This document shows positions 53,659 through 56,600 of a stretch of DNA of 64,000 bases, piece by piece; positions within the stretch are counted from its first letter, which is position 1, and each line of letters begins with the position of its first letter. Under the pieces are notes generated by a model, which had not been told where the DNA came from, did not search any database, and worked only from the letters and a program-made list of their open reading frames with translations. Made by a program: the position numbers and the translations under genes. This DNA is from Lineus longissimus (lineage: Eukaryota; Nemertea; Pilidiophora; Heteronemertea; Lineidae), in the NCBI RefSeq assembly GCF_910592395.1, contig NC_088309.1, positions 2,110,501 to 2,174,500 of the forward strand, in the 5' to 3' direction.

Positions 53659-56600
53659 ATGGCGACGGCTCCGACAGTTCCAGATTCGCCGGCTCCGGAA
53701 ACAAAGCCTGGTGGAATCAAAACATACGGAGAAAAACCAAGAAGAATACAAATAGAGAAGGACAAGGAATGGTACTACATTGGATCAGAAGTATGTTGAC
53801 CGATCGCAACTCTAAAGTGGTGAAAAATGCCAATGAAAATTTGTGTCCTGGACAATGCATTGTGACTGTCTCCACGACACGTACACTACAGTGTACGTAC
53901 ACTGTCGCTGCACTGCAATACACACGTTACTGCGTGTACCAGTGTGAACTATATAAGTACTAGCATTGTACCCGTGGCGCAGGCAGGTTCAAATGGGCTA
54001 TACCTTGAATAGATTGAATTGCATCGAAAATCTAATGCAATATCAAAGGAGCAATATCGAAGAGACAAATTAAACCAACCATTTGTCCACAGACTCGGAC
54101 CCTGTGGCGTGCTGTATGCGTGCATATAAAAGTAAATCAATTGGTCCGAATGAGATGATGAGGCAATGTGAATATACCTCGTTCCTTAGTCAGCAATGTG
54201 CCCCTTTTTATACGGAGATGAAGGAGAACCCAGATAGGCCTTCACATGTCGGCCTCCAAATGGCTCGGACCAATTGCACTATCACTACTAAAACTTTAAA
54301 ATGCGTGCTCCTCCTTCATGTAGCATGATCTCGGGCAAGGCACTTAGTCGACAGGCAAGCTAGAATTTCAGCACCGTGAGCAGCTCCTTGATAAGGCCAT
54401 GCCAAGTTCAGAGTGCCTCTTCAGATACATCAAGTTTTGAAAGCTGTGGTGAGCACATAAACATACCATTGAAACCTTAATTTGAAAATCCCTTCATAAT
54501 CAAGGGCTAGCTCTGGCTAATACAGTACCAATATACGATAGACCATCAATTTGACCCCAGCTCCTTACTGCGGGAAAACCCAAGTCCAGCAACCAAAAGT
54601 ATCAAAATACATTTTTGTTTACATTTGAACTGCACACATGCGTTTGTTTACAATTTCTTTCCCGCGAAATCTCGAAGATCAGGTGACCTACAATCGTGGA
54701 TTGAAAATAACATTAACCTTGGTTCAGCAGGTCAACACGTGTACAGGCTGTTCCAATCATCCCCCTACAGCCAGCCGTTCAACAGGTAGTGTTAGTCACC
54801 CCACAGGGAGTGCAGGTGATTCATTAATCCCCTGCATAACTAAACAGCAATGGCTTGGCTTCCGTGAGTGATAAGGAGAATTGACCGTGTCCGATTAAAA
54901 ATCCCTCATTACTGCTCCGCTGAAGTAAATTTCCGAAAATAAACATGACGTTGCATCAGGATAACATATCACCTGCAAACGTGCAAAATTTCGAGACGAA
55001 ACACGACCCCCAAATGGCACTTTAGCGAGCCGCCTTATAGTATTATGATATAGATATTGACTGTACTGTACACCATTTTGACACATTTGAGATACAGAAT
55101 ACAGATCTCGGGGGGGGGGGGGGATCTCAGTATCTCCGAGCATGACAAGGACAAAGCCATGCAAAAGTCCTGTTGTCCAACATCTCAATCTGGATTTGGA
55201 TATTGCAAGGCGATTATGGTGATTTTAGTGGTTTATTGACTTGTTATTGTTAATTTTGTTTCCAAAAGTAAATAACTTTTTTTCAGAAAGCAGGATCTTC
55301 GGAAGGAAGAAATGAGAACTCAAGTCTACTAGTTGCACCATTGTACTTCTTAGAATTGGTTTCATCTGTGATTTGGCTTACAATAACAATGTGTCAGACT
55401 GGGAGAGATGTTGTAGAATTGAAAGACAACAATTGATGTTTTTGGGTTTTTTTGGTTTCATACATTGTTATTGTATGTACTTTCCTTTATTAAATCATAC
55501 TAAGTTATCAGTAGCCAAGCCCTATTGGTGTTGTTCCAGTGAAGTCACCCATAATCCGTCCCTTCCTGCGCCATGCATGGCAAGAATAAATCCAAGTGTT
55601 TCATTTGTTAGGTTGGCAGCTACCTCCGTATGTTTAGAGGTTCCTTATACAAAAGGTATCCATCGCTGTGGAGGCGGCTCGCCAGTGTGGAAGATCGGAA
55701 GAAAATAACTGACCTGGGTAAGTGAAGAACCCAGTCCAGTCGGTGGGTGACTGTTGATGAGTGGCCAGAGATCACCTAGGGAATTTTGTTGATAGTTTTA
55801 TCATGTTTCTCCTTCCCTGTTTACCTTCTGCTTTGTTTCAGTTGTGTGTTGCGGATGTACGACTAACTACGTTTTATTGTACGACCTGTCGCATGGCTGG
55901 TTGGTCTCGTTGATGCAGTACTCGCTGTTAATGTCAAAGCCTGTCACATTTCAATGCTGACAATCATCACGTCCCAAATTTTAGGGCAGTTTCATAGTAC
56001 ATTGTACATTGCGATAACTTAAACTAAATTTTTTTTTTTTTTTTTTTTTATTTTTTTTATTTAATCGTACATAATAGTACATTCAACAGAGTGCAGTGCT
56101 GTATTGTGCAGTGAGAAAAATAAATAGATGGAAGAACATTTTAAAGCATTTAAAGCATACTCATAACACTTTACTCCAAATTGTAGGACTTGGCCAAGAT
56201 TACTGGTCATTCAGTCTACAGAATTATGTTGATTTTGATCATTTTGGTGAAACTGAAACTGAAATCTTCTTGTCTTAAATTCTTGTCTGAAAATACATAG
56301 CTTGTAATCTTAAATGAACACAGTGCACAAGTTGTTTCTCTATTGTATGATGTTGTAGTTTGGTTGTGATGTTGCAGTTATGAAAGGTTACAGGCTTCAG
56401 TTTCATTACAGTGCAGTCACTGATTTGCTAAGCGTTTTCGTTGCTATGCGGGTAAGTGATAGTGTTGGGTTGTTTTATGTTCTAGGTCGGCAATTACCTT
56501 CAGATGTTTAGGGGCTCCCTCTATCGGAGGTACCCGGCACTTTGGAGACGTTTAGCAACTATTGATGACAGGAAAAAGATTTGTGATCTTGGTGAGTTTT

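Follow-up and report, generated by a model that had tools for sequence, protein, structure and literature searches.

BAF complexes are usually diversified by the swapping of paralogous subunits, and SMARCB1 (BAF47/INI1/SNF5), for which human has one gene, is regarded as a core subunit that does not vary. The DNA-binding domain of SMARCB1 is a winged helix, a fold to which the forkhead domain also belongs. By NMR, the winged-helix domain of INI1 was found to bind DNA weakly, and Arg37, Arg40, Lys45 and Arg52 are among the conserved exposed residues at its putative DNA site, to which Thr56, where the wing begins, was added (PMC4509781). In a cryo-EM structure of PBAF on the nucleosome, the winged helix is located on the DNA at SHL+6.5, with R37, R40, K45, R46, R52 and R53 near phosphates, whereas in BAF the same SMARCB1 winged helix associates with ARID1A instead (PMC9741621). 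The substitution p.Arg37His, encoded in human exon 2, is a cause of a severe neurodevelopmental disorder, and, according to the same review, it is still to be established in what way variants in separate regions of the protein result in clinically distinct disorders (PMC12343709).

In human SMARCB1, exon 2, which is the exon considered here and encodes part of the same winged helix, has a length of 1 mod 3 and is used in two main isoforms, long (139 nt) and short (112 nt), in addition to six minor isoforms (PMC12343709); the short donor shift that the original prediction for the present locus had mentioned for human is thus documented. The mutually exclusive exons 18 and 18b of FOXP1 alter critical residues in the forkhead domain and the DNA preference of the protein, and the BAF subunit DPF2 (BAF45D) is likewise spliced, at exon 7, into short and long forms that bind different chromatin sites (PMC11701043). 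Tandem exon duplication in a conserved metazoan regulator has been described for the HLH exon of vertebrate COE/EBF (PMC2394523). A strict count of mutually exclusive exons in human arrived at 855 high-confidence cases, and SMARCB1 is absent from the main text of that study (PMC5740500). In the open-licence literature we found no report of mutually exclusive alternative splicing in nemerteans and, judging from titles and the starts of abstracts, no described exon pair of this type in SMARCB1, in agreement with the original prediction.

We analysed the SMARCB1 gene of the nemertean Lineus longissimus in a window of 64,000 nucleotides, which is the whole stretch of DNA that was studied. The complete coding region covers positions 53659-61241 on the plus strand, with 10 exons per mRNA and GT-AG introns, and the reading frame is 387 aa long with either of two versions of exon 2, here referred to as A and B. 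The features of the gene are as follows:

53659..53790, plus strand: exon 1, coding part, 44 codons, ending in ...IGSE, donor GTATGT; the 5' end is that of the coding start only
55612..55717, plus strand: exon 2A, 106 nt, phase 0/1, 35 residues, AG before and GTAAGT after, with the canonical Arg37, Lys45 and Ser49
55718..56485, plus strand: intron between A and B, 768 nt, with a T-run at 56029-56062
56452..56457, plus strand: GTAAGT, similar to the consensus 5' splice site, its first base being 33 nt upstream of position 56485, where the intron that precedes exon B ends
56486..56591, plus strand: exon 2B, 106 nt, phase 0/1, 35 residues, AG before and GTGAGT after, in which Gln replaces Arg37, Arg replaces Lys45 and Ala replaces Ser49; database protein P0001 contains this version
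58292..58421, plus strand: exon 3, encoding the second half of the winged helix; one copy in the window
58614-58751, plus strand: exon 4
58926-59053, plus strand: exon 5
59208-59374, plus strand: exon 6
59730-59838, plus strand: exon 7
60097-60178, plus strand: exon 8
60808-60939, plus strand: exon 9
61202-61241, plus strand: exon 10, including the stop codon

The end of exon 1 is at what we take to be the same codon as the border between exons 1 and 2 in human SMARCB1. Isoform B contains the two domains that define the SMARCB1/SNF5 family, the INI1 DNA-binding winged helix (PF21459, 129.9 bits) and the SNF5 repeats (PF04855, 186.5 bits), and its residues 21-387 are spanned by the match to the human SMARCB1 chain (E 2.6e-190). 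When the N-terminal 117 residues were compared with the Pfam INI1_DNA-bd model, the scores were 134.5 bits for isoform A and 133.2 bits for isoform B. Searches with both versions of exon 2 (tblastn) found no third copy in the window, where the next best match had an E-value of 0.17, and searches with exons 1 and 3-10 found no second copy of any of these exons in the window.

Upstream of SMARCB1, a CoA-transferase family III gene, presumably AMACR-like, is located on the minus strand at 50897-53306 (its first and last parts were examined), apparently head-to-head with SMARCB1; the two start codons are 353 nt apart, which suggests a shared promoter. An 81-base unit that is repeated 11 times with 94% matching (62316-63227) lies about 1.1 kb beyond the end of the SMARCB1 coding region. 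Elsewhere in the window, at 13739-22189 on the plus strand, four intronless rhodopsin-type receptor genes are arranged in tandem about 2.5 kb apart, with 324-338 of 341 residues identical in pairwise comparisons; for the one receptor that was searched, the nearest database protein was 68% identical, and the identity to a named nemertean protein was 46%. A GPCR gene near SMARCB1 had 15 relatives in the database, and the two of these that carry a species name are from the nemerteans L. longissimus and Tubulanus polymorphus.

In our view, A and B are likely to be true tandem duplicates of exon 2 that are used in a mutually exclusive manner, of which B would encode a variant winged helix with a proposed change in DNA contact. 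The two exons are neighbours, encode the same 35-residue part of the winged helix, have the same length (106/106 nt) and phase, are flanked by GT-AG sites, contain no in-frame stop and share 27/35 residues, which are the sequence characteristics applied to mutually exclusive pairs in PMC5740500. The coordinates originally given for the exon borders (53790; 55612-55717; 56486-56591; 58292), the length of 106 nt and the phases 0/1 all hold, as does the claim that the inclusion of both or neither of the exons breaks the frame: when A is joined to B, a stop codon is reached after 87 aa, inside exon B, and when neither is included, after 63 aa, inside exon 3. Because the length of exon 2 is 1 mod 3, a tandem copy is workable only as an alternative. 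Human exon 2 (139/112 nt) also leaves a remainder of 1, and the asymmetry of this exon may therefore be old. Double inclusion or double skipping would in both cases lead to an early stop and presumably to nonsense-mediated decay (NMD).

At the nucleotide level, 69/106 positions are identical between A and B. Seven of the 35 codons are identical, 20 differ silently and 8 by a replacement (S/N, R/Q, K/R, S/A, S/T, V/I, E/D and T/C), with the segments MFRGSLY and LWRRLA being the same in both copies, as had been noted previously. Third codon positions account for 25/37 of the nucleotide differences (binomial P 2e-5). A comparison of the dN/dS type, which the original prediction had named as a check, gave 24.5 synonymous differences over 23.8 sites (pS > 1, saturated) and a pN of 0.154; since the synonymous differences exceed the synonymous sites, the split between A and B is old. 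Of 200,000 neutral simulations started from each copy, none produced a stop-free sequence with at most 8 residue changes. Had one copy evolved neutrally for about half of the differences (18), the observed conservation would have a P of about 0.012-0.015, while the pairwise test would still be passed with about 12 neutral changes on one copy (P 0.34-0.36). Neither copy has acquired a stop or lost a splice site, and both look functional, a recent loss of constraint on one of them being compatible with the pairwise test. Judged from these data, the exon pair is real and well constrained and is probably a true exclusive pair.

The divergence of the two copies also bears on the origin of the duplication. 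Assembly errors can create duplicated exons, and a second haplotype or a collapsed paralogue might have been inserted next to the true exon; the sturgeon protein P0002, in which the exon-2 peptide is repeated identically together with a second stretch, looks like such an assembly or model artefact. For L. longissimus, we give this explanation next to no credence, since haplotypes would be nearly identical, whereas A and B share only 69 bases, and since no similarity was found by blastn between the intron flanks of A and those of B, which argues against a haplotype artefact. The other SMARCB1 exons, moreover, are single copy within the window.

It is also conceivable that A and B are not exclusive in practice and that frequent double inclusion or skipping lowers the level of SMARCB1 via NMD in a poison-exon arrangement, in line with the early stops of both off-products, which are followed by several introns. 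A poison exon needs no coding conservation, yet both copies keep their coding sequence, which makes the productive use of each the likelier selected role; we regard the poison-exon arrangement as highly improbable.

We compared the exon-2 segments of A and B to those of 167 other SMARCB1 proteins. These were obtained from 169 listed proteins (the best 120 of 796 hits of one search, plus 49 new ones among 111 listed by a second search) by the removal of P0105, in which no segment was found, and of P0001; the 167 segments represent 79 distinct sequences, with several rows per single species or gene. The database is clustered at 90% identity, so that isoforms of the A/B type in other species could hide inside clusters. 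At human position Arg37, Arg is present in 167/167 homologues and in exon A, and Gln is present in exon B; Gln37 as in exon B occurs in none of the 167 other proteins with the segment. Lys45 (Lys in 165/167) is Lys in A and Arg in B, and Ser49 (Ser in 159/167) is Ser in A and Ala in B. At Asn34, which is Asn in 160/167 homologues, exon A has Ser. At positions 56, 57 and 58, the versions of A and B both occur among the 167 homologues, and the variable position 64 (T/C) has the Cys of B in 3/167 and the Thr of A in 0/167. Thus, of the three replacements highlighted in the original prediction, R/Q and K/R are located at near-invariant positions and T/C at a variable one. As A keeps near-invariant residues where B departs from them, A is the orthodox copy.

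Position 59 is Asp in both A and B and Glu in 167/167 homologues. The duplication therefore looks lineage-specific, the simplest scenario being that the change from Glu to Asp preceded it; the shared Asp59 could equally be accounted for by gene conversion or by parallel changes in the two copies. In a midpoint-rooted SMARCB1 tree of 110 of the 120 listed proteins, from which 10 long, odd or fragmentary models had been removed by hand, P0001 formed one of the long end branches and had no firm position, and some of its odd residues may thus reflect a fast lineage.

P0001 is identical to isoform B and is one member sequence. Isoform A, which differs from B at 8/387 residues, was not among the best 120 of the 796 protein-database hits, and exon A may accordingly be rare, stage-specific, unsampled or unused. 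This raises the possibility that only B is now in use and that A is an old copy that recently went out of use, or the reverse, with no regulated choice between the two. Such a recent change would be in accordance both with the presence of B in the sole listed database protein and with the finding that a copy with about 12 neutral changes would still appear conserved. We nevertheless find it unlikely, since in A the reading frame is open, both splice sites are intact and the near-invariant residues of the 167 homologues are retained, except for Asn34, and since the version in the database is B, the divergent copy. The absence of stops and of lost splice sites, together with the synonymous divergence, also speaks for a long coexistence of the two copies.

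Under the preferred reading of an exclusive pair, the replacements in B are of interest because of their location in the protein. In an AlphaFold model of isoform B, based on a 45-sequence alignment, the mean pLDDT over residues 41-80 was 81-89 in blocks, as compared to a whole-chain mean pLDDT of 68.8 and a pTM of 0.36. In this model, exon 2 encodes the second and third helices, a strand and the greater part of the first helix; Gln50 (human 37) is located in the loop that leads into the second helix, and Arg58 (human 45) belongs to the second helix itself. Two of the residues altered in B, Arg37 and Lys45, are published as putative or modelled DNA contacts (PMC4509781, PMC9741621), which supports the original proposal of two winged-helix versions. 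In the account of a deep mutational scan based on a tumour-cell growth assay, R37 and K45 are not among the 13 most intolerant residues, those in the winged helix being R52, A55, I63, K77, L90 and L91 (PMC13237135). Given that R37Q removes one charge, that K45R is conservative, that the Pfam scores of the two isoforms are near equal and that R37 and K45 do not stand out in the scan, the functional difference between A and B could be slight.

Exon A encodes the standard DNA-reading surface of animals, and exon B encodes a variant of it, with Gln, Arg and Ala in place of Arg37, Lys45 and Ser49, respectively. We propose that BAF/PBAF complexes that contain isoform B may have a weaker or differently directed contact between the winged helix and nucleosomal DNA; alternatively, B may alter how binding to DNA is balanced against docking on ARID1A. 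Isoform B might be used in particular cells or stages.

Several mechanisms by which the two exons could exclude each other were considered. Steric hindrance, for which the donor and the branch point should be less than 50 nt apart, does not fit the A-B intron, which with its 768 nt is too long. Incompatibility of U2 and U12 sites was also rejected, as the donors GTATGT, GTAAGT and GTGAGT are all of the U2 type; the sole U12-like string between exons 1 and 3 adjoins the acceptor of exon 3. Nor did we find the complementary intron sequences that had been suggested: in this one genome, the longest complementary stretches were 14-16 nt, as compared to means of 15.2-15.5 in 20 shuffles, and the duplex energies of 10 pairs of intron ends had z-scores between -1.86 and 0.82 relative to 30 shuffles, none of them beyond the shuffled sequences. 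If NMD acts, the frame shift could by itself suffice to discard the wrong products.

As for the choice between the exons, the acceptor is TAG at both A and B and CAG at 8/8 constitutive acceptors of SMARCB1, which, for two sites, hints at regulated exon use. The GTAAGT before exon B has GGGTAAGTGA (ten bases) in common with the donor of exon A and could be a decoy donor; given that GTRAGT occurs on the plus strand at 0.53 per kb, a chance occurrence is also compatible. A TGCATG is located 32 nt upstream of exon A. This motif occurs 59 times in the window on both strands, as compared to 49 expected, and the counts near the exons are small, and we therefore did not retain it or other splicing-factor motifs as a signal.

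We also examined whether other SMARCB1 proteins vary in the winged helix. No second case of an exon-2 swap was found in five groups of proteins from the same contig among the listed matches (clustered at 90% identity). In each of the pairs P0005/P0010 and P0042/P0052, the two proteins are distinguished by an insert at the junction of exons 2 and 3, where human exon 2 shifts its donor; this junction varies in more than one lineage. P0013/P0017/P0037 and P0083/P0110 showed no difference in the part compared. The two proteins P0076 and P0106, apparently from one contig, have their first 68 and last 268 residues in common; the only differences between them are in the exon-3 segment (26/41 identical) and in a 20-residue insert. 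In the tree, they belong to a clade of 30 rows in which the visible names are those of molluscs (Sinanodonta, Potamilus, Solemya and the partial name 'Nuce'). From the protein models P0076 and P0106, it is probable that a species of the mollusc clade has an alternative exon 3.

An extra exon-3-like segment is also present in the tick-group proteins P0012 and P0028 (Rhipicephalus microplus), with 28/33 residues identical between the two and 29/41 identical to the usual exon-3 copy (to which a prefix taken from the other tick proteins had been added). The P0012 and P0028 models join both copies of exon 3 with trimmed ends, while the other aligned tick proteins have one copy; such joins are what a gene predictor might make of a frame-exclusive pair. 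In a pattern scan for the exon-3 segment in the 169 proteins, 2 proteins had two segments and 126 had a single one; the other 41 gave no match, the segment being hidden in these by the strict pattern or a missing domain.

If the exon-3 cases were confirmed in DNA, exons for the SMARCB1 winged helix would have been duplicated at least three times, and cases in other phyla would raise a comparative question. A wider proposal, which is tentative and in our judgement rather doubtful as a whole, is that exons of the SMARCB1 winged helix are duplicated repeatedly in evolution (exon 2 in the nemertean, and exon 3 independently in the mollusc-clade species and in ticks), which would supply each of these animals with two DNA-contact modules, one standard and one modified. 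In this view, exon B would be a regulated, natural equivalent of the Arg37 substitution that causes disease in human, loosening or redirecting the grip of PBAF at the DNA exit side.

Mutually exclusive exon pairs are of a known kind, and the probable pair described here is located in the winged helix of SMARCB1, which is an unusual and informative place. A spliced switch in the DNA-binding domain of this subunit would be another way to diversify the BAF complex, and the exon pair would offer a natural test of winged-helix function, of Arg37 in particular. FOXP1 binds a known motif, and its exon pair has been described in mammalian stem cells and tested experimentally (PMC11701043), whereas the nemertean SMARCB1 pair is a candidate identified in the sequence. 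Unlike FOXP1, the SMARCB1 winged helix has no established sequence preference (PMC4509781) and is part of a remodelling complex. In DPF2, a single exon is switched between a short and a long form (PMC11701043), as compared to a duplicated exclusive pair in SMARCB1, and the duplicated exon of vertebrate COE/EBF became mandatory (PMC2394523), whereas the SMARCB1 pair would be exclusive. In human SMARCB1 itself, the donor of exon 2 is shifted by 27 nt (PMC12343709), whereas in L. longissimus the whole exon would be replaced, with a change of putative DNA-contact residues.
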